From positions 1 to 48,134 of the forward strand of contig JAETNS010000019.1 in assembly GCA_021772015.1 (NCBI GenBank): DNA of 48,134 nt, given 5' to 3'. The position numbers and the translations under genes were made by a program. The DNA comes from Prevotellaceae bacterium (lineage in GTDB: Bacteria > Bacteroidota > Bacteroidia > Bacteroidales > Muribaculaceae). How positions within the stretch are numbered: position 1 is the first letter of the stretch; every line of letters begins with the position of its first letter. A model generated the notes under the pieces. The model was not told where the DNA came from and made no database searches. It was given only the letters and a program-made list of their open reading frames with translations. Shown here piece after piece: positions 13,419-43,226 of the stretch.

Positions 13419-14240
13419 TCATATTCGCTCGACATCGGAAGCCTTCACCCACGCTCGTTCACCATGACCGACAAGTACCTCATACCACATTCCCTCGCCG
13501 GGATTTGATATTGAATCTATAATCTCCACTTTCGTTCCCTCATGCAAGAGGAAAGCCTGCTCCGACTGGTTACGGGCCTCACGCGGAGATGTCGAAAGCT
13601 GCGAGGATGGAGGCAGGATGATCGCATAATTATCAGAATTGACATTGTTGGCCGCCGCGAAAGAGACAACTACCGCAATAACGGTGACCGCGAAAACCAC
13701 AAGCCCTCCAAAAAAACTTGCCTTCTTGACAGCAACGGCCGAGGAAAAGAGATAAGCGGCGACAGCTCCAAGAAACACGGCAAACAACAGTAATGCTATC
13801 ATCGCCCAAGTGTCGGGATGGAACATACCGACAGTCCCTTTCCATATCGAATCCAGATAGGAACCACTGTCAATCTGCTTGTCTGTTATCTTGGAATTGA
13901 CGAAGTCAAGGTTAGCCCGCGCGTCGGCATTCGTCGGATCGAGTTTCAACGCCCGCTCGTAATTGATAATAGCCTTACCGAGATTCCCCTGACGGTAATA
14001 AGCGTTGCCAAGGTTGTAAAACAACTCGCTCGAACTCCCTTCCCTCTTCAGAGCCTCAAGATACAACGATTCAGCCATCACAAAATTATCCGCGCTGTAG
14101 GCGGAATCCGCGCGCTGCAAAACGATTTTGACAGGAATGCCACCGGTCGTTTTTTTTGGAGCCACACTGTCTGAAGATGCCTGGGCGGCGACATCAATGA
14201 GGGATACGAACAGGAGTAATATGCAGGAAATGAATTTCAT
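13419..14240 (-). CDS. batE: BatE: TPR and SH3-like membrane protein of the Bat operon
   Basis: 273 residues. An N-terminal signal peptide is followed by TPR repeats at about residues 40-115 (ELFYNLGNAYYRQGNLGKAIINYERALKLDP). Two membrane helices follow near 142-165 and 173-198. The C-terminus is an SH3-like domain (GTKVEIIDSISNPGEGMWYEVLVG). It is the last gene of the operon, nine bases after batD. In Bacteroides the Bat proteins form complexes associated with aerotolerance; the molecular role of BatE is not settled. Confidence 0.88.
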   Translation of the reverse strand: MKFISCILLLFVSLIDVAAQASSDSVAPKKTTGGIPVKIVLQRADSAYSADNFVMAESLYLEALKREGSSSELFYNLGNAYYRQGNLGKAIINYERALKLDPTNADARANLDFVNSKITDKQIDSGSYLDSIWKGTVGMFHPDTWAMIALLLFAVFLGAVAAYLFSSAVAVKKASFFGGLVVFAVTVIAVVVSFAAANNVNSDNYAIILPPSSQLSTSPREARNQSEQAFLLHEGTKVEIIDSISNPGEGMWYEVLVGHGERAWVKASDVERI

Positions 14241-14249
14241 CTGTATGAT

Positions 14250-16109
14250 TTACTTGCGTTTGCTAATGTTGCTTTTTTCAAGTTCATTGATGGAAGAGGT
14301 CGCCTCATTGTAGACAGCCTCAACTGAAGCCTCCGAAGAGGAGTCCGGTGTATAACGCGCCATCTCGCATTGGTCGAGTACAGAAATCAACCTGTCGGAG
14401 ATATCTTCCGCGACACCCCGGCCAGATAATGTCTCCTGGATATTCTGACGGGTAAGCTGCGAGACAGGCATCGACAGTTTGTCACTGAGATATCCCCACA
14501 TGGCCTTCAACATGGACTCATAGAATTGTTCGGGTTGACGGGCTCTCATGAACTTCTCGGCCTCACGCAATCGCTTGCGGGCGACCTTATTAGCCCTGGC
14601 GTTGCGACGGCCGGCGACATCGGCATTCAATCTCGCCTGCCTGCCGTATATTATCGCTGCAAGGAGAAGGACAACAACCATAACGGCCGCGATCGTCCAG
14701 TACCACCAGCTAAAGATTATCGGGTCATGTGTCTTCGACAGACTTTTCGCTCCGGTCTTTATATGGAGGATGTCGGTGTTTTTGGCCTCAATCTCCCTTT
14801 GTTCCGCGCTTATGGTGGTGCCGCTTCCTTTGGCGACCTCCATCGTGTAGCCGGGAGCGGTCAATGTCACATACGCGCGCTTGGAGGGATCAAAATAGAC
14901 AAACTTCTGATCGGGAATCTTGAATGTGCCGACACTTTGCGGCACCAGAGTATAATCGACCATCATCGTACCCGTGACCGTAGATCCACTTACACGTGTA
15001 CGGGAGTCTGTTTTCGGGGTGAATTGCTCGAACTCATCCGGGATCTCCGGTTTCGGCTCATGAACATATTTTATGTTGCCTGTCCCGGTGACAATGTATT
15101 CGAGCGAAGCGGCTTCCCCGGTTTTCAGCTTGTCGGGAGCCAGACGGCTCTCAAACGTGAATTGTCCGACCGCGTTGTCAAATCCTGCGGGACGAGGCTC
15201 CGGAAGCGGTGTAATGTTTACAGAAGAGGTATAAGGCTGAAGGTGGACCTCCTTCTCAACCGGACGGCCCGAAACGAACCAGCCATTGCTTACCCTCTCG
15301 ATCTGCACGACACTAAGGTCATACTTCCCTGAATTTATGGTCAGCTTGCCAGATTTCTGGGGAAAAATTATGCATTTCTTCAACACCGCCGTCACATAAT
15401 TCTGACCATTGTAATTCTCGACGGCATTGAGAGCCGCCTGTGTGTCAACCTCCTCTATGAGGAATCCGTCGAATGTAGGCGGAGAGGTCATCATAAAGGA
15501 GTTTATACGCTGGAATTTGGTATACAGCTTTATCGTGCATTCTATCGCTTCCTGCTCATAGGCATGGCTCTTGTTTAGGATGATCCTTACAAAGATGTCA
15601 TCCTTGGAAATAGGTCTTGAAGTGTCATCCTGTGATGAAAGATCATCTACATGGACGCTTTGTTGCTGCGGGACATTTCCGTAACCATAGCCATACCCGC
15701 CCTGTTGCGACTGGGGAGCTTTGTCGGCAGGAAGCACAGCGAACTTGGCAGCTTGCGAGGTCAGCTTCTTGCCATCGACAACTATGGAAGCCGCAGGGAT
15801 GGAGAACGTACCCTCTTTTTCCGCGCGATACACGAAAGTATATTCAACAGTGCTTGACGATGAAGCTTGCCCGTTGATTATCTGATAACTTTGCGACGTG
15901 CTGACTCCCGGTTGCGGATTGAGCAGCTTGCATCCGTTTATCGGTGGAGCATTCAGGCTGGTGCCTTCCCCGTTTGAAAGGCGATAAGTGACCGCAAAAC
16001 GGTTGCCTACGATGACATTTCTTGGAGGAATGACCTGAAAAGAGGTCTGTGCCGCCATCGTCATGCAGCATAGCAATGTCACTGTCAATATCAAAAACAA
16101 CTTTTTCAT
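14250..16109 (-). CDS. batD: BatD: oxygen-tolerance protein of the Bat operon
   Basis: 619 residues. A signal peptide (MKKLFLILTVTLLCC, cleaved near MAAQ) leads into a long periplasmic part made of repeated beta-sandwich modules, typical of BatD. A single membrane helix lies near residues 468-490 (IIFSWWYWTIAAVMVVVLLLAAII), and a basic cytoplasmic tail carries a helical segment of about 120 residues. It is probably the scaffold that meets the vWA proteins BatA and BatB in the periplasm. It starts 47 bases after batC. Confidence 0.92.
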   Translation of the reverse strand: MKKLFLILTVTLLCCMTMAAQTSFQVIPPRNVIVGNRFAVTYRLSNGEGTSLNAPPINGCKLLNPQPGVSTSQSYQIINGQASSSSTVEYTFVYRAEKEGTFSIPAASIVVDGKKLTSQAAKFAVLPADKAPQSQQGGYGYGYGNVPQQQSVHVDDLSSQDDTSRPISKDDIFVRIILNKSHAYEQEAIECTIKLYTKFQRINSFMMTSPPTFDGFLIEEVDTQAALNAVENYNGQNYVTAVLKKCIIFPQKSGKLTINSGKYDLSVVQIERVSNGWFVSGRPVEKEVHLQPYTSSVNITPLPEPRPAGFDNAVGQFTFESRLAPDKLKTGEAASLEYIVTGTGNIKYVHEPKPEIPDEFEQFTPKTDSRTRVSGSTVTGTMMVDYTLVPQSVGTFKIPDQKFVYFDPSKRAYVTLTAPGYTMEVAKGSGTTISAEQREIEAKNTDILHIKTGAKSLSKTHDPIIFSWWYWTIAAVMVVVLLLAAIIYGRQARLNADVAGRRNARANKVARKRLREAEKFMRARQPEQFYESMLKAMWGYLSDKLSMPVSQLTRQNIQETLSGRGVAEDISDRLISVLDQCEMARYTPDSSSEASVEAVYNEATSSINELEKSNISKRK

Positions 16110-16156
16110 CGCCGTTTCAGAAATATCTCATTGTTAAATAGTTGTAATTATCTTTG

Positions 16157-16975
16157 TCACCAAGGCTTACCTGTCTGGCGTTGGCGCGACTGTTTTTCCT
16201 GGCCTTGCTTCATCTGCTCGACCTTCATTCGCGTGGCCGACTCCTTGTCATCCATCGCCTTGAGGATCTGCGCCGCGCTCTGCTCGCTCAAGCCTCCTTG
16301 CTGTTGTTGCTGCTGTTGCTGTTGTTGTTGCTGCTGATCCTTGTCCTGCTGATCTTTGTTTTGATCCTGCTGGTCTCGGTTCTGCTGCTGTTGCTGCTGA
16401 TCCTGATTCTGATCCTGGTTGTTATCTTGATCCTTGTTATCATCTTTGTTCTGGTCTTGCTGTTGCTTTTTCAATTGCGCAAGTCGCAGATTCTCACGTG
16501 CCTGATTGTTTTCAGGATTGCGACGCAAGGCATGTTTGTACATTTCAATTGCCGACGCATAATCCTCACTCTTGTAGGCAATATTGCCACGATCATAGAA
16601 GGATTGTTCCGCAAGGAGGATATCGGAATTGGCAGCAGTCTGTTCAAGGATAGCATCAGCCTGCTTCACAAGAGAATCACCCTTGTTAACGAGATCCTCT
16701 CCACGCTGTTTCAGATACGATGACGCGAGATTGAACCGGGCGCGTCCGTTATCGGGATTCTCGCCAAGAGCCTTCTTGAAATTGACCTCCGCCTCTGCGT
16801 AACGCTGTTTGTCGAAGAGGCTTTTTCCCTCTTTCATATAGTTACGCTCACGCTTGGTTGATGGGCGCGCTCCGGCAGATTGGTCTTCTCTGGATGAACA
16901 CCCGACGGTTGCCATCACAAAGAAAACGGCACATGCTGATATGGATAATATCTTCAAGAACTGTTTCATTTCCAC
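16157..16975 (-). CDS. batC: BatC: TPR protein with glutamine-rich tail, probable lipoprotein
   Basis: 272 residues. The N-terminus looks like a lipoprotein signal with a candidate lipidated Cys26 (FFVMATVGCSS). Two TPR blocks follow (SLFDKQRYAEAEVNFKKALGENP and YASAIEMYKHALRRNPENNQA). The following segment is almost pure Gln/Asp/Lys/Asn and includes a 13-glutamine run encoded by mixed CAA/CAG at 16298-16336. A short basic tail ends the protein. BatC is reported to pair with BatB and BatE through its TPRs. The Q-rich region is probably disordered and is a plausible slippage site. Confidence 0.88.
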   Translation of the reverse strand: MEMKQFLKILSISACAVFFVMATVGCSSREDQSAGARPSTKRERNYMKEGKSLFDKQRYAEAEVNFKKALGENPDNGRARFNLASSYLKQRGEDLVNKGDSLVKQADAILEQTAANSDILLAEQSFYDRGNIAYKSEDYASAIEMYKHALRRNPENNQARENLRLAQLKKQQQDQNKDDNKDQDNNQDQNQDQQQQQQNRDQQDQNKDQQDKDQQQQQQQQQQQQQGGLSEQSAAQILKAMDDKESATRMKVEQMKQGQEKQSRQRQTGKPW

Positions 16976-17012
16976 AATTCCTTATTGACTTTGATTAAAG
17001 AGAATATAAACC

Positions 17013-18089
17013 TCATCTGTCTCCCTTTTTCAGACTACCGCCTCCATTGGCCGCGATTTTCTGATGGGAAAAGAATGTATATCGTTTGAGCCATCCGATC
17101 TTTGTCGGCAAGATTACCGCATCGATCACAAGCAGGATAAGGGCAATCCAGACAAACAGCGGGAATTGCTCCGCACTCGCTTTATAGGATACATGCTGCA
17201 GGTCGCTCTTTTTGATCTTGTCGAGCTGATCAACAAGATTCGTCAGGGCTTTGGAGGAGGAGCCATTGATATAAACGCCACCTCCGGCCTCGGCGATCTC
17301 CTTGGCCATCTTCTCATTAAGGAAAGTGGTCACAGGCGCGCCTGTCTCATCTTTGAGGAAATCACCATTGCGGTTAACAGGTATCGGAGCCCCCTTCATA
17401 GAGCCCACCCCCATGACATCTACTTCGATACCGAGACTTTTAGCGTATTTGGCCATCTCGACAGCGTCCCCCTCATGGTTCTCGCCATCTGTGATAACGA
17501 TAATAGCCTTGTTTATATCCTCAGCGGGAGAGAAGGAGTTGATCGCCATGTTTATGGCAGTTCCGATCGCTGTTCCTTGCGTCGGGACCATCTCTGTCGA
17601 TATCTCGTCAAGATACATCCTCGCCGACACGAAATCCGTAGTGATAGGAAGCTGCGTGTAGGCTTCTCCGGCGAAAACGATAAGACCGACTTTGTCATTG
17701 CCGAGCTTGTCTATGAGATTGCCCAACAGATATTTCGCCCTGTCAAGACGGGAAATGCCACGGGTGTCATCTGTCGAGGACGCGAGCATGGAGCGGGAGA
17801 CATCGAAGGCGATCATGACCTCTATACCTTCTGTCGACTCTACCTCCTCCTTCTCGCCGGCCCTCGGACGCGCCACGGCGATCACAAGTGCGGCAAACGC
17901 GAGAAGTTCCAAGGTTATCTTTATCGCCGGCTTGTATTTTGAAGCCTCCGGCATAAGATGCTCCAGATGGCGCGGATTTCCATAACGGCGCAGTTTTATC
18001 CTGCGCGCCACACGCGACCAATACCATAACCCGAAAATCACCGGTATGAGCAGGAGCAGATATAATAATGTGGGATATGCGAACGACAT
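17013..18089 (-). CDS. batB: BatB: membrane-anchored von Willebrand factor A protein
   Basis: 358 residues. Two helices near the N-terminus (residues about 5-25 and 58-76) and one near the C-terminus flank a vWA domain whose metal site (MIDAS) begins DVSRSM and includes the later TQGTAIG and VITDGENHEG segments. The vWA domain is periplasmic and would bind a partner through a divalent metal. It follows batA after seven bases and precedes batC. Confidence 0.92.
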   Translation of the reverse strand: MSFAYPTLLYLLLLIPVIFGLWYWSRVARRIKLRRYGNPRHLEHLMPEASKYKPAIKITLELLAFAALVIAVARPRAGEKEEVESTEGIEVMIAFDVSRSMLASSTDDTRGISRLDRAKYLLGNLIDKLGNDKVGLIVFAGEAYTQLPITTDFVSARMYLDEISTEMVPTQGTAIGTAINMAINSFSPAEDINKAIIVITDGENHEGDAVEMAKYAKSLGIEVDVMGVGSMKGAPIPVNRNGDFLKDETGAPVTTFLNEKMAKEIAEAGGGVYINGSSSKALTNLVDQLDKIKKSDLQHVSYKASAEQFPLFVWIALILLVIDAVILPTKIGWLKRYTFFSHQKIAANGGGSLKKGDR

Positions 18090-18096
18090 GACTTGA

Positions 18097-19083
18097 TTAT
18101 GGAATAGTACGGAGCCAAGTCTGGCGGATTACGAGTTCGAGCAAAAACAGCACCAGCGCGGCAAGCGCCCAAGGCAGGTAGCAATCCTCCGTGTGGGAGA
18201 AATGTTTCACATCGAGTTCGGTCTTCTCCAGCTGGTCAATTTCAGAGAAAATATCCTGCAGTACACGGTTTCCCGTGGCCCGGAAGTATTTTCCCCCTGT
18301 TATGTCTGCTATTTGTTTTAACGTAGCCTCATCAATCACCACCGGCTGCGGCTGATATTCGATCCGGCCAAACATGTTGTACATCGGATACAAAGCAGTC
18401 CCGTTTGTTCCGATACCGATAGTGTATACCTTGATTCCGAGTTTCTTGGCGATCTCGGCGGCAGTCAACGGAGCGACTATGCCTGTATTGTTGGAGCCGT
18501 CGGTAAGGAGGATGACACTTTTGGATTTCGCTTTTCCGTCTTTGATACGGTTTATTGATGTCGCGAGACCGTCGCCGATAGCGGTGCCGTCCTCAAGCAT
18601 TTCACGGTTCAGGGCTGTCACATAGTTGGCGAGAGTCGCGCGATCAGTGGTCATAGGCACACCGGTGAATGCTTCCCCGGCGAAGACAACCAGCCCCATA
18701 TTGTCATTCTCACGGCCGTTTATGAAGTTTGCGGCTATCTTTTTTGCGGCTTCAAGCCTGTCAGGCTTGAAGTCTCGGGCAAGCATTGAGGAAGAGATAT
18801 CGAGGGCGATGACCATGTCGGTGCCTTCTGTCTTGGAAGTCCGCCAGGCATCTCGCGTCTGCGGACGCGCCAGGCACACTACCAGACATCCTATCGCGAG
18901 CAATCTAAGGAGATACATCGCGTAAAGGCCATACTGGCGCGCGGGCCTCCCCAGCGTACGGAATGGCCCCGTGGTGGATATCTGCAAGGAAGGATGAGTG
19001 CTACGTCGCCGCCAGATCCACCACCCCGCCAGGGGCAGGCAGACCAGCAACAGCCATAACATTCCGGGATTTGCGAATTGCAT
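18097..19083 (-). CDS. batA: BatA: membrane-anchored von Willebrand factor A protein
   Basis: 328 residues with the same plan as BatB: N-terminal helices, a vWA domain with MIDAS motif DISSSM, a threonine-bearing loop (EDGTAIGDGL) and LLTDGSNNTG, and a C-terminal membrane helix (LPWALAALVLFLLELVI). BatA and BatB are taken to hetero-oligomerise. The gene lies 32 bases behind the DUF4381-like gene. Confidence 0.92.
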   Translation of the reverse strand: MQFANPGMLWLLLVCLPLAGWWIWRRRSTHPSLQISTTGPFRTLGRPARQYGLYAMYLLRLLAIGCLVVCLARPQTRDAWRTSKTEGTDMVIALDISSSMLARDFKPDRLEAAKKIAANFINGRENDNMGLVVFAGEAFTGVPMTTDRATLANYVTALNREMLEDGTAIGDGLATSINRIKDGKAKSKSVILLTDGSNNTGIVAPLTAAEIAKKLGIKVYTIGIGTNGTALYPMYNMFGRIEYQPQPVVIDEATLKQIADITGGKYFRATGNRVLQDIFSEIDQLEKTELDVKHFSHTEDCYLPWALAALVLFLLELVIRQTWLRTIP

Positions 19084-19104
19084 CTTGATAAGTTTTCTAA
19101 ATTG

Positions 19105-19118
19105 TAAGTAACTGGTCA
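19105..19118. repeat. Copy of the TAAGTAACTGGTCA motif
   Basis: TAAGTAACTGGTCA overlaps the stop codon of the upstream operon gene and sits in the gap before batA. It matches 14 bases of the motif repeated in the efflux operon (copies at 36784-36800, 41743-41759 and 41794-41810). It may be coincidental here. Confidence 0.35.
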
Positions 19119-20093
19119 GACAGTTTTGATTGACGAACCGTCGGCAGGATCACCCTCCCCGGGCAGCGTCTCCACAGGTTTTGTCTCCTCAACGAACTGC
19201 ACTGCCTCCGACATCGCCCGGTGGTTGTCATCGGGAAGAGGTCTGACCTTGGCGAATTTGACAAAATCAGCTATCTCAAGGATACGCTTCATTCGCTCAT
19301 TCGGCATCCTGGTAGTCTCGTTCTCATTCAACACTCTGGTTATCTGCTGGGTTGTCATCTCCATCGCATTGATTCCAAAACGGCCCTGTAGGTAATCGCG
19401 CAGAATGTCTGTCAGACGGGTGTAATACTCCTTCTCCTGACCGTTCTGCCAGAGATTCCTCTCCCGCAGACTCTCAAGCCGCTGCATGGCAAGTTGATAA
19501 GGCGGCACAGGCTTTTTCTTCGGCATTAGCGGAACCTCCACTTTCTTGGTCATTATCAGATAACCGCATATACCGGCTGCGATGATCAACAGTCCGGCAA
19601 GAATCCACTGCCAGTAGTCTGTCAGCCAGTCGGGAAGGAAGTCATACCACCGGGTCTCGAAATCCATCGCCGGAGCAATCGGATTTATATCCTCCATATC
19701 GCTGACATCCACCGGATTCACTTTCAATGTGATAGGTTGGGTACGCAATGTGTCGGGCCCGTTGACCATCATGAAGGGAGGGATAGTATAGACTCCCGAA
19801 TCGAAAGACTGCACTATCAACGCCCTTTTCATCTCGACAATCCCGTTGCCAAGATCTGTGGTGTCGCCATAAACCCAGTCAATGATCTCGACCTCGGTGG
19901 GCATAGCGTTCTTGTCAACAAGGATATCCGCAACCGCCCCTGCCTTGTCCACGATATCGAAACGTATCGCGGTCTGATAACCCATCGTTATTTGCGAAGA
20001 GTCGACCGAGGCTTTCAGAGACCTGGCGGACAATGGTACTGTCAAAGACAGCACAGCAGACAGGAACAATATGTTTATGAGCCTTTTAAGCAT
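19116..20093 (-). CDS. Bat-operon single-pass membrane protein (DUF4381-like)
   Basis: 325 residues. A signal peptide (MLKRLINILFLSAVLSLTVP) is followed by a beta-rich periplasmic part to about residue 150, a membrane helix at about 162-182 (WILAGLLIIAAGICGYLIM) and a cytoplasmic alpha-helical region (ERNLWQNGQEKEYYTRLTDILRDYLQGRFG). The last segment resembles the conserved part of DUF4381 proteins found between DUF58 and vWA genes. The biochemical function is unknown. It probably links the cytoplasmic DUF58/MoxR machinery to the membrane vWA proteins. Confidence 0.8.
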   Translation of the reverse strand: MLKRLINILFLSAVLSLTVPLSARSLKASVDSSQITMGYQTAIRFDIVDKAGAVADILVDKNAMPTEVEIIDWVYGDTTDLGNGIVEMKRALIVQSFDSGVYTIPPFMMVNGPDTLRTQPITLKVNPVDVSDMEDINPIAPAMDFETRWYDFLPDWLTDYWQWILAGLLIIAAGICGYLIMTKKVEVPLMPKKKPVPPYQLAMQRLESLRERNLWQNGQEKEYYTRLTDILRDYLQGRFGINAMEMTTQQITRVLNENETTRMPNERMKRILEIADFVKFAKVRPLPDDNHRAMSEAVQFVEETKPVETLPGEGDPADGSSIKTV

Positions 20094-20171
20094 CAGACAA
20101 ACTTGTTAGATTTCGAGTATGCCCTTATAGACCGCATACTCTTCATTTCTTTAATTTTTGATCGTGGCTGA

Positions 20172-21041
20172 TCAGACACGTTTACGGAAAAGTCCCATGA
20201 GGGCCGTGACAAAATCCTCGTCTGTGGCAACAGAGCATGAGTTGACACGACAACGTTTGAATGTGTCAGTCATGACCTGCTGGCGTTCATACCACCATTT
20301 GTTGTACAAAGCGCGCACCTTTTTGGAAGAGGTGTCAACCCATTGTTCGGCATCGTTCTCGAGATCCTTGACCCTCATCAGTCCGACATCCGGCAACTGG
20401 GCGTCACGTTTGTCATAAACCTGAATCCCATAGACATCATGCTTGTTGGAGGCGATGGACATGGCTTTGTAGTAGTCCTTCTCATCTATGAAGTCGGAGA
20501 TGACAAATGTCGTACAGCGTTTCTTCAGGGCATCTGTGAAATATCTCAACACCATCCCTATGTCGGTGCCGCTATGGTCAGGAGTGAAGTCAATCAGTTC
20601 CCTGATGATAAAAAGGATATGCTTTTTCCCCTTCTTGGGAGGTATGAATTTCTCGATCTTGTCTGAAAAGAAAATCACACCGATCTTATCATTGTTCTGA
20701 ATGGCTGAAAACGCCAGAGTCGCCGCGATTTCCGCTATCATCTCGCGTTTCTCCTCACCCACAGCCCCGAAAAGACGGGAGCCGCTGACATCCACAAGCA
20801 ACATGACTGTCAGCTCGCGCTCCTCCTCATATATTTTGACATAAGGGCGGTTGTGTCGGGCTGTCACATTCCAGTCTATGTCGCGGATATCATCGCCGTA
20901 TTGGTATTCCCTGACTTCGGAGAAGGTCATGCCACGCCCTTTGAACGCCGAATGATACTCTCCGGCGAAGATGTTCTGGGAAAGTCCGCGAGTCTTGATC
21001 TCGATACGCCTGACCTTCTTCAATAGTTCGTTGGCATCCAT
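20172..21041 (-). CDS. DUF58-domain protein of the MoxR-Bat operon
   Basis: 289 residues with no membrane segment. The DUF58 signature is plain: GEYHSAFKGRGMTFSEVREYQYGDDIRDIDWNVTARHNRPYVKIYEEER (split here into its parts GMTFSEVREYQYGDDIR and IDWNVTARH), followed by a vWA-like half beginning MLLVDVSGS. DUF58 proteins always accompany MoxR ATPases and are their likely partners or substrates. It sits 42 bases after moxR. Confidence 0.9.
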   Translation of the reverse strand: MDANELLKKVRRIEIKTRGLSQNIFAGEYHSAFKGRGMTFSEVREYQYGDDIRDIDWNVTARHNRPYVKIYEEERELTVMLLVDVSGSRLFGAVGEEKREMIAEIAATLAFSAIQNNDKIGVIFFSDKIEKFIPPKKGKKHILFIIRELIDFTPDHSGTDIGMVLRYFTDALKKRCTTFVISDFIDEKDYYKAMSIASNKHDVYGIQVYDKRDAQLPDVGLMRVKDLENDAEQWVDTSSKKVRALYNKWWYERQQVMTDTFKRCRVNSCSVATDEDFVTALMGLFRKRV

Positions 21042-21083
21042 CCTGTTTGAAAATTATCTGAATATTCGGTTTCAACGACGGAA

Positions 21084-22079
21084 TCAGGGCACAACCACTT
21101 TGTCGAGAATCTCGGAGATAATCTCGTCGGCCGAAATGTTGTTGGCCTCAGCCTCGTAGGTGAGACCGATACGGTGGCGCATGACATCATGGCAGACGGC
21201 ACGGACATCTTCAGGAATCACATAACCGCGCTGACGCAGGAACGCGTAAGCCTTGGCGGCACGCGCCAATGAGATGGAGGCACGCGGTGATGCTCCGAAC
21301 GATATTATACTCTGGAGTTCGGGCAGCCCGCACTCGGCCGGGAAACGCGTGGCGAAGACAATGTCCACTATATAGCGTTCGATCTTCTCGTCGATATATA
21401 TCTTCTCGACCACCTGCTGCGCGTCAAGGATGTCTTCGGGACGCAGCAACGGACGGACGACAGACCTCTTGTTTGACAGGTTCTGACGGATGATCAGCTT
21501 TTCCTCGTCACGGGTAGGATATCCGATGACCACCTTCAAAAGAAAACGGTCGACCTGTGCCTCCGGGAGAGGGTATGTGCCTTCCTGCTCGATGGGGTTC
21601 TGTGTAGCCATGACCAAGAACGGCTCGTCAAGGGGGAAAGTACGGTCGCCGATCGTCACCTGACGCTCCTGCATTGCCTCAAGCAATGCGGCCTGCACCT
21701 TTGCCGGCGCGCGGTTGATTTCGTCAGCGAGAACGAAATTGGCAAAAATCGGCCCCCTTTTCACTTGAAACTGCTCCGATCTCACGCTGTAGACCATCGT
21801 ACCGGTCACATCGGCGGGCAAAAGGTCGGGAGTGAACTGTATTCGACTGTATTTGGCATCAATCAACTGCGAAAGGGTCTTGATGGCCAAGGTCTTGGCC
21901 AGACCGGGAACTCCCTCCAACAGTACATGCCCGTTGGAGAGAAGGGCGATGAGCAAGGATTCTACGAGATGCTTCTGGCCGACAATCGTCTGGTCCATCC
22001 CCTGCATGATCAGGCTGACGAAATTGTTGCGGCTTGCCACGAGGTCATTAAGCTCTCTGATGTTTACCGTTTCACTCAT
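21084..22079 (-). CDS. MoxR-family AAA+ ATPase
   Basis: 331 residues. Walker A is LEGVPGLAKT, Walker B is VLADEINRAPAKVQAALLEAM, sensor 1 is MATQNPIEQEGTYPLPEAQVDRF, and an AAA lid domain follows with SFGASPRASISLARAAKAYAFL. MoxR proteins are chaperone-like ATPases that activate vWA proteins by metal or conformational loading. As the first gene of the unit it would energise the DUF58/Bat complex. Confidence 0.94.
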   Translation of the reverse strand: MSETVNIRELNDLVASRNNFVSLIMQGMDQTIVGQKHLVESLLIALLSNGHVLLEGVPGLAKTLAIKTLSQLIDAKYSRIQFTPDLLPADVTGTMVYSVRSEQFQVKRGPIFANFVLADEINRAPAKVQAALLEAMQERQVTIGDRTFPLDEPFLVMATQNPIEQEGTYPLPEAQVDRFLLKVVIGYPTRDEEKLIIRQNLSNKRSVVRPLLRPEDILDAQQVVEKIYIDEKIERYIVDIVFATRFPAECGLPELQSIISFGASPRASISLARAAKAYAFLRQRGYVIPEDVRAVCHDVMRHRIGLTYEAEANNISADEIISEILDKVVVP

Positions 22080-22310: not shown

Positions 22311-23606
22311 TCACTCTGACATCGCTTTATAAGATTCCTTGTCAGCTTTTCTGAGTGACTCCTTGTCAGCAGGGTCAATTCCGTATTTGTCGCGAGGCGG
22401 GATGACGAGCACCATCCCATCTTCGAGATTGTCGGGATCCTTTATTTTGTCTTTGTTCTCGATATAGATGTATACCCAGAATTTGGCATTGCCGTAATGG
22501 CGGCGAGCCATCAAAGAGAGATAGTTGCCCGGCCTGACCGTGTCAGTCACAATTTTTGTGGCAGAAGTCGATGGAACATAGCCGGTCTCCTTGTGTGAAT
22601 CTGATGACGATTTGTCGTCAGCAACCGAATCAGAGTGTATGTCCGTCCGCTCGACAGCATTGTCATTCACTAAAGTTGCACTCTCATCTCCATTAGGGGA
22701 CACTGCTGTCATCCGGGCTATTGAATCGACCTGTCTGACAGCATCATGACGTATAAGTATGCCATCCTCCAATATCTCAACATTCGCAGGCATGCCAAAG
22801 TTCGCATACCTGTATGCCAGATATCCGATCACAAGCCCCAGCAGACAGGCGGCGATGGCGGTAACGATCAGTGTAAGAGTAGTATGCCCCACCCTCTTGA
22901 TTGTCACACGGCTTTCAGGCTCCAGCCTGACAGGTACAGGTGATTCAAGAGACTGCAACCGGGAAATTCCCTGATCGGATTGATTTTCCGAGGCCTCCAT
23001 CTTAGCGGCCTCGTGTGGGATTTCCTGCAGGGGTTTGGGGTCAATACTATCAGGGGATGGGGTTGTAACATCATCCTCGGGGTGAAGTTTGACTGCGGAG
23101 ATTGTGGGCAGAGGATCCTTGACTTTGGATTCGGCCGTATGCCTGAAACGCGCCGGCAACGGAGGCGGCATTGACACTCCGGCTGCGACATCATTTCCGG
23201 CTGCTGACACCTGGCCTGACTCCGGCGATTGTTTCCCTGAAGAGACTGCTTCCTCGCTCTCTGAAGTAACGGAAGCCTTGTCACAATCATGCACCTCAAT
23301 GGTCAAAAGCTCATCATCAGTAACCGAATCAGCCAGTTCGACCGACTCGAACATTGAAAACGGCTCATTGACAAATGCCGACAATGATTCCTCGGGAGCG
23401 AAATCCACAGTCAGATTACCATCGACATCGGATGTCGCTTTGAAAACACCAAGACCGTCAACCTTTACCACACCGTCAGCAGCCAGTCCTTGGGTGACAA
23501 CAACTGAAAATTCCTTGATGAAAGATCCCGCGACATCACTCCCGCAGTTTACCTTTGCGGCCAACCGCGCAATCACTTCCGGCAGGGGAATTGTGTTTGG
23601 ATTCAT
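22311..23606 (-). CDS. HU-like DNA-binding domain fused to a membrane helix and a LysM domain
   Basis: 431 residues. Residues 1-90 form an HU/IHF-like domain (IPLPEVIARLAAKVNCGSD, then GVVKVDGLGVFKATSD). A long acidic, Ser/Pro-rich linker follows to about residue 235. One membrane helix is at about 243-263 (TLTLIVTAIAACLLGLVIGY) after a basic stretch (RVTIKRVG), consistent with a cytoplasmic N-terminus. A periplasmic linker leads to a LysM peptidoglycan-binding domain at about 357-405 (DTVRPGNYLSLMARRHYG, then LEDGMVLVIPP). The layout would tie DNA or another HU partner to the cell wall. It overlaps the preceding HU-like gene by four bases. Confidence 0.85.
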   Translation of the reverse strand: MNPNTIPLPEVIARLAAKVNCGSDVAGSFIKEFSVVVTQGLAADGVVKVDGLGVFKATSDVDGNLTVDFAPEESLSAFVNEPFSMFESVELADSVTDDELLTIEVHDCDKASVTSESEEAVSSGKQSPESGQVSAAGNDVAAGVSMPPPLPARFRHTAESKVKDPLPTISAVKLHPEDDVTTPSPDSIDPKPLQEIPHEAAKMEASENQSDQGISRLQSLESPVPVRLEPESRVTIKRVGHTTLTLIVTAIAACLLGLVIGYLAYRYANFGMPANVEILEDGILIRHDAVRQVDSIARMTAVSPNGDESATLVNDNAVERTDIHSDSVADDKSSSDSHKETGYVPSTSATKIVTDTVRPGNYLSLMARRHYGNAKFWVYIYIENKDKIKDPDNLEDGMVLVIPPRDKYGIDPADKESLRKADKESYKAMSE

Positions 23607-23890
23607 TTATCCGGACCCTCCGCAATCCCGTTTTTAAGTCTTCCTCCAGGAATAAACTCCAACTCAATCACCGGAGGCAGAAGCAACCTTTTACCGGTCG
23701 AAAGGTCGCGGACAACCGTCTCATCCCGTTTAATGCCCTGAAAGGAACCCAATGAAGGGAAAGCGACCCTGTTGAGGTCGCGGCATTCCTCTCCTATGAC
23801 TTCGATAAAACTCTCCAACAGCTTTTCCGCCGTGGAGGTCTCAAGGTTAAGGCGCGAGGCCATTATGCTAACAAACTGTCTGCTCTCCAA
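23603..23890 (-). CDS. Small HU-family (HU/IHF-like) protein
   Basis: 95 residues if translation begins at the TTG at 23888-23890, giving an HU-like N-terminus (ESRQFVSIMASRLNLE). The frame can be extended to an ATG at 23941, but a -7 element (23929-23936) would then lie inside the coding region and only nine bases would separate the start from the preceding terminator, so the shorter form is preferred. The core motif VAFPSLGSFQGIKRDE corresponds to the HU beta-arm base. The C-terminus differs from classical HU. Its stop overlaps the start of the HU-LysM gene, so the two products are probably made together and may dimerise. Confidence 0.72.
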   Translation of the reverse strand: MESRQFVSIMASRLNLETSTAEKLLESFIEVIGEECRDLNRVAFPSLGSFQGIKRDETVVRDLSTGKRLLLPPVIELEFIPGGRLKNGIAEGPDK

Positions 23891-23928
23891 TTTAAAAACA
23901 ATTTCGACCGGTTTAATCGTAAGTTCGA

Positions 23929-23936
23929 CAAAGGTA
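23929..23936 (-). promoter_or_regulatory. -7 element of the HU / HU-LysM gene pair
   Basis: The minus strand reads TACCTTTG. Transcription would start near 23922 and the TTG start at 23890 would have a leader of about 30 nt. No clear -33 element was seen. Confidence 0.45.
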
Positions 23937-23949
23937 AGCATTTTCCATC

Positions 23950-43202: not shown

Positions 43203-43226
43203 GCAGCCGGCATTGCTGACAAAAAT

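Follow-up and report, generated by a model that had tools for sequence, protein, structure and literature searches.

The closest described systems are the CCDC81-like HU-TM-SPOR proteins (PF18174 + PF18175 + PF05036), which occur in Bacteroidetes, and the heterodimers of HU and IHF. Burroughs et al. 2017 reportedly proposed that the former act in chromosome partition. A link of the chromosome with membrane and wall has reportedly also been suggested for them; for eukaryotic CCDC81, a role as a protein-binding hub and not as a DNA binder has reportedly been put forward. Here we describe a locus in a window of 48,134 nt (contig JAETNS010000019.1, positions 1 to 48,134, of the Prevotellaceae bacterium assembly GCA_021772015.1, Muribaculaceae in GTDB), in which two adjacent genes encode a small HU-like protein and an HU-TM-LysM fusion (Table 1). 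The two HU domains of the pair, the second of them armless, are ordered as in the CCDC81-like proteins, and the fusion shares with them a linker and a C-terminus of the peptidoglycan-binding type; however, the CCDC81-like system is a single chain with SPOR, whereas the window's system is split over two genes and bears LysM. With the HU and IHF heterodimers the pair has the HU fold and the paired paralogues in common, but one of its subunits is anchored in the membrane and the window's fusion half lacks the arm.

Neither PF18174 nor PF18175 matched the pair proteins at E<=1, PF18175 finds three places in the window's genome with none at the pair locus, and Pfam gave no SPOR match in the window's fusion, which has a LysM-type domain instead. 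The pair is thus a split, LysM-bearing variant of the HU-SPOR membrane proteins, which works like the HU-TM-SPOR proteins yet lies outside that family by domain tests. HU-SPOR fusions of Bacteroidetes had been mentioned in the preliminary description of the locus, and Pfam detects domain 1, domain 2 and SPOR both in the window's own genome (L120:733-1863, G000 contig C6) and in a Bacteroidia relative (L123), so that two such HU systems coexist in this genome. A literature search returned no title or abstract opening describing an HU-LysM pair, and in passages of PMC10434189 HU and LysM stand as separate table entries.

Table 1. Features of the HU pair and its downstream neighbors in the window
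Feature	Position	Strand	Basis
Small HU-like protein, 95 aa, TTG start	23603..23890	-	ORF list and Pfam match
Overlap of 4 bases, small gene's stop with the fusion's ATG	23603..23606	-	ORF coordinates
HU-TM-LysM fusion, 431 aa, ATG start	22311..23606	-	ORF, profiles, hydropathy, model
Fusion HU domain, residues 1-92, without beta-arm, ending in the conserved VNxPFxxFExVEL stretch	23331..23606	-	Profile alignment, model
Single transmembrane helix, residues 246-264	22815..22871	-	Hydropathy; model helix 245-268
LysM domain, residues 351-404, then C-terminal helix	22395..22556	-	NCBIfam, model, profile and fold matches
MoxR AAA ATPase, next gene downstream	21084..22079	-	Pfam
DUF58 / vWA / TPR / BatD-like genes after MoxR, Bat-type operon	13419..21041	-	Pfam; genes below 19116 named by eye

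Domains and topology of the two proteins

Read from its first ATG, the ORF of the small gene covers 23603-23941 on the minus strand, and the ATG at 23941 adds 17 aa. We consider the TTG at 23890 to be the likely start, because most relatives open with M-D/E/N-x-K at this place. The small protein matches Pfam Bac_DNA_binding (PF00216) with 42.5 bits, above the cut-off of 22.4, and the window's genome has just one other PF00216 match at E<=0.001. The fusion starts with its HU domain, continues with ~150 residues of linker, one TM helix and about 85 more residues, and has a LysM domain near the C-terminus; profiles, hydropathy and the model of the LysM region agree with this architecture, which the preliminary description had given, and the ORF coordinates bear out the four-base gene overlap that it also named. 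The HU domain of the window's fusion scores 15.2 bits against PF00216, which is under the gathering score (22.4), and it is tied to the HU/IHF family because four armed relatives score above the cut-off (61.9-74.6 bits). A fusion-HU profile built from 27 relatives matches an IHF structure at 1.1e-28, and both this profile and that of the small HU rank 2iie_A (integration host factor, 204 residues) first among PDB chains. Models from three-row alignments were of low confidence for both the small HU (mean pLDDT 54.8) and the fusion HU (pLDDT about 30-50).

For the LysM domain no Pfam LysM match was found in the window's fusion at E<=1. NCBIfam PRK11198 (LysM) matched at 1.8e-6 but with 28.4 bits against a cut-off of 134, so that no curated cut-off was reached, and one relative scored 16.3 bits for LysM, under the cut-off of 20.9. 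The structure model is confident in this region (pLDDT about 80-91, residues 351-430), and the best PDB matches of the fusion model are LysM-bearing chains of Kbp, a potassium-binding protein and the nearest solved relative of the window's LysM (probability 1.00; E values of 0.004-0.015, all of them above 0.001). HU and LysM in the window's fusion are identified by way of relatives and profiles, LysM also from the structure model.

We next consider the orientation of the fusion. By a hydropathy threshold only, exactly one TM stretch is seen in 158 of the 161 fusions with a detected HU, and in these it separates HU from LysM. The 15 residues before the TM stretch contain more K/R than those after it in 130 of these 158 fusions (family 92/109, order 15/24, f141 23/25; f141 is one family outside the window's class). 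A single TM stretch with this bias would put HU on the cytoplasmic side and LysM in the periplasm, an orientation that the preliminary description also gave and that we regard as probable. LysM would then be expected to bind peptidoglycan.

Pairing, one-chain forms and LysM-less relatives

A search with the single fusion sequence recovered relatives from 128 of the 149 genomes that represent the window's family, covering 30 of 30 genera, and from 34 of 149 order genomes, where some are LysM-only matches. With profile A1, its table being read by eye, fusion-level matches were seen in 27 of the 149 order genomes; among 247 genomes drawn from across the phylum, 3 members of the order and 25 of the 29 f141 genomes had them. 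The A1 tallies at E<=1e-6 (146/149 order, 247/247 phylum) were rejected as fusion counts, being mostly ordinary HU. We likewise rejected the idea that the pair is peculiar to the window's genome, as it is widespread in the family, the order and f141. Chance ORFs are ruled out because the fusion is kept in so many family genomes and the adjacency of the two genes is conserved.

The pairing survey took 119 loci from the 128 matching family genomes, 26 from the order and 25 from f141, the last omitting the 4 of 29 f141 genomes without a fusion-level match. Each genome contributed one locus, apart from L246, a second locus of one order genome, which is not a fusion and yet was retained among the 26. 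A LysM ORF was found in 115 of 119 family loci (the exceptions are L230, L232, L234 and L238) and in all order and f141 loci. In 110/115 family, 22/26 order and 25/25 f141 LysM loci, the gene immediately upstream, in the same orientation, is a small HU; the preliminary description had suggested looking for conserved adjacency of the pair across Bacteroidales. The four order loci without a separate upstream small HU are three one-chain proteins and L246; among the five such family loci, four start at a contig edge and L169 is a true miss. L169 encodes a full-armed fusion with no small HU in 1744 bases upstream, either a real loss or an assembly fault. Some overlap of the two genes was observed in 66/109 family, 19/22 order and 23/25 f141 pairs, with starts chosen by rule. 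We inspected 12 loci without MoxR by eye and observed several kinds of neighbors with the two HU genes still together, and the pairing of small HU and fusion is thus conserved across neighborhoods.

Three order genomes encode one-chain HU-HU-TM-LysM proteins (L242 and L243 in one family, L244 in another). Their first HU domain scores 47.7/44.7/29.6 bits with the small-HU profile versus 22.9/19.4/14.4 with the fusion-HU profile, and their second one 52.1/56.6/33.8 bits with the fusion-HU profile versus 13.0/12.6/5.5 with the small-HU profile. In profile-profile comparison, domain 1 of the CCDC81-like proteins (15 rows) matched the small HU with 97.6%, the armless fusion HU with 91.8%, the armed fusion HU with 82.5% and ordinary HU with 59.6%. 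For domain 2 the values were 97.5% (armless fusion HU), 94.1% (small HU), 93.6% (ordinary HU) and 93.5% (armed fusion HU), margins which are modest, with no preference of the armed fusions and an ordinary-HU control of only 4 rows. Since the pairing is conserved and natural one-chain forms have the same domain order, we infer that the small HU and the fusion HU form a heterodimer. The suggestion in the preliminary description that the small protein may dimerize with the fusion's HU domain is well supported by this reasoning. It is conceivable that the small HU is an ordinary homodimeric nucleoid protein, that its adjacency reflects coexpression only and that the fusion HU dimerizes with itself, as the small protein scores as a normal member of the HU family and is one of the genome's two matches; with the pair persisting across several neighborhoods and one-chain forms existing in nature, we hold this to be very improbable.

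Two further observations concern HU domains of related architecture. In the family loci L015:1194-1442 and L021 most of the first helices are missing from the small HU, which resembles the shortened first HU domain of the CCDC81-like proteins. The armless HU-TM-SPOR proteins of f131 and f138 (L119, L138, L140, L142, L143, L145 and L149, the first five from f131) have an HU domain that is profile-similar to the armless fusion HU (99.1%) and SPOR in place of LysM (PF05036 tested for L138 only). Directly upstream of the protein in L119, the only one examined there, lies a short HU-like ORF, a SPOR counterpart of the split pair.

Among the family genomes, 13 have an HU match but no LysM ORF; 10 of their loci are complete and 3 are cut or masked (L230, L256, L257). 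These 13 loci are the four named above plus those of nine remaining genomes, and the small HU lies directly upstream in 13 of 13. In the 10 complete loci, all from genera g9 and g24 (L232, L234, L238, L249-L255), LysM is absent and the HU-TM protein stops 9-50 residues past the TM helix, with the small HU upstream and MoxR downstream in every case. Two genera of the family thus keep the membrane-anchored HU pair without a wall domain. The absence of LysM from loci that keep the rest argues against a wall tether being the universal function, and a wall link is not required in every lineage.

Beta-arm, charge and the grip on DNA

The arm was scored over 156 pairs, all from LysM loci in which each of the two HU domains has an ORF of its own; the 13 LysM-less loci do not belong to this set. 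A fusion HU was taken as armed when it fills 15 columns that are gapped in the window's fusion, the columns being defined by that gap, and each partner was scored for a proline at the arm tip. The window's fusion HU is gapped at all 15 columns and its partner has L at the proline column. Fusions are armed in 26/109 family, 20/22 order and 25/25 f141 pairs and armless in 83 of the 109 family pairs. The partner has the proline in 71/71 armed pairs and in 12/85 armless pairs, and has lost it in 73/85 armless pairs. In the family, the arm segment of the partner has a mean net charge of +3.9 where the fusion is armed and of -0.5 where it is armless. Fisher's test of arm against proline within the family gave p 9e-17, which was rejected as proof, since the independent events on the MoxR tree are few: over 86 rows the arm state changes twice and the proline seven times, with one or two independent pairs of changes in the same direction, too few for significance. 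With the arm lost only about twice, the link is not significant as a set of independent events. In genus g18, which has both arm states, 5 of the 6 armless pairs shown lack the proline and 2 of 2 armed pairs keep it. Outside the family, arm loss goes with proline loss in G225 and, by eye, in the one-chain G234, while G258 lost the arm and kept the proline.

The net charge is -9 for the window's fusion HU and -2 for its small HU. Mean values for fusion HU and small HU are -7.4 and +2.2 in the family, -2.7 and +5.7 in the order, and -2.4 and -1.5 in f141, and because f141 is negative despite full arms, net charge is a weak guide. In the rows shown, the f141 small HUs (L093-L117) have the arm tip Y-N-P-H-Y or Y-S-P-H-H and not N-P-x-T-G. 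The ordinary HU of the window's genome (L247, G000 contig C39, 35960-36226, the only other PF00216 match) keeps its arms and has a net charge of +3, but lacks the intercalating proline; it reads N-I-S where N-P-x, seen in L089-L091, is what we take to be the usual HU form. A missing proline is for this reason not proof of lost DNA binding.

The conserved core of the system is a membrane-anchored HU pair, whose wall and DNA links differ by lineage. We give about even chances to the reading that the two proteins are the halves of one HU-type heterodimer at the inner membrane, ancestrally a link to the chromosome, with ligand binding that is weakened or changed in the window's lineage. The dimer would lie on the cytoplasmic side of the inner membrane, with the small HU as its soluble half and the N-terminal HU of the single-pass membrane protein as the other; in most lineages, the window's included, the membrane protein also carries a LysM, which in the periplasm would be expected to bind peptidoglycan. 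The armed relatives probably keep the ancestral state, in which the dimer would grip DNA and so connect the chromosome with membrane and wall. The window's lineage has lost the fusion arm, and its partner arm has decayed, so that the grip on DNA may be weakened or another ligand may have taken its place. We counted against this reading the low-confidence models of both HU parts, the LysM-less loci of g9 and g24, the window's LysM under curated cut-offs with Kbp nearest, the negative charge of the fully armed f141 pairs, the small number of arm losses on the MoxR tree, L169 without small HU, and the armed fusion HU (93.5%) being no closer to CCDC81 domain 2 than ordinary HU (93.6%). Of the nucleoid-to-cell-wall tether put forward in the preliminary description, the membrane-anchored HU pair stands, but tethering is not established, as the window's pair is armless, without proline and net negative, and LysM is absent from the complete loci of g9 and g24.

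Alternatively, the pair of the window's lineage may no longer bind DNA at all and may act at the membrane as a hub that binds proteins, a role reportedly proposed for eukaryotic CCDC81. The prevalence of armless fusions in the family and the negative charge of the fusion HU and of the window's partner are consistent with this, as is the HU core, which remains recognizable with its VNxPFxxFE stretch after arm loss. However, the family's small HU is still positive on average, the genome's ordinary HU with its kept arms also lacks the proline, and the armless pair may bind DNA weakly or without bending it. We place the hub somewhat short of even odds. A fuller evolutionary version, in which coordinated loss of both arms would have turned the family's two-chain HU heterodimer of the membrane (and mostly also of the wall) from a DNA clamp into a cytoplasmic membrane hub, with the wall part shed in two genera, and would thus have made it a bacterial counterpart of CCDC81 in its reportedly proposed non-DNA role, we hold a little more tentatively still. 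Chromosome-envelope coupling in Bacteroidota is in our judgement poorly known, and the armed, armless, one-chain and LysM-less natural forms provide a variant series for testing whether HU dimers hold DNA at the envelope and by what steps an HU gives up DNA binding.

The MoxR-Bat neighborhood

MoxR lies downstream of the pair in 80/115 family, 15/26 order and 0/25 f141 LysM loci. These frequencies in family and order, the retention of MoxR in all 10 complete LysM-less loci and the Bat-type operon that follows in the window would fit the pair being an accessory of the membrane MoxR-Bat machinery (MoxR and vWA proteins), with DNA and wall not its main ligands. Yet among the 106 family loci with 1300 or more bases of downstream sequence, 30 have the two HU genes together without MoxR, and so do all 25 f141 loci, although only 6 of the latter extend that far downstream, and we consider an accessory role unlikely, compared with the membrane-anchored heterodimer preferred above. 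PADLOC defense models gave 0 matches at E<=0.01 for 4 proteins, and the Bacteroidota-type promoter pattern has a single match in the window, at 43226 and not near the pair. The genes downstream of the pair at 13419-22079 form a complete-looking MoxR-DUF58-vWA-TPR-BatD operon.
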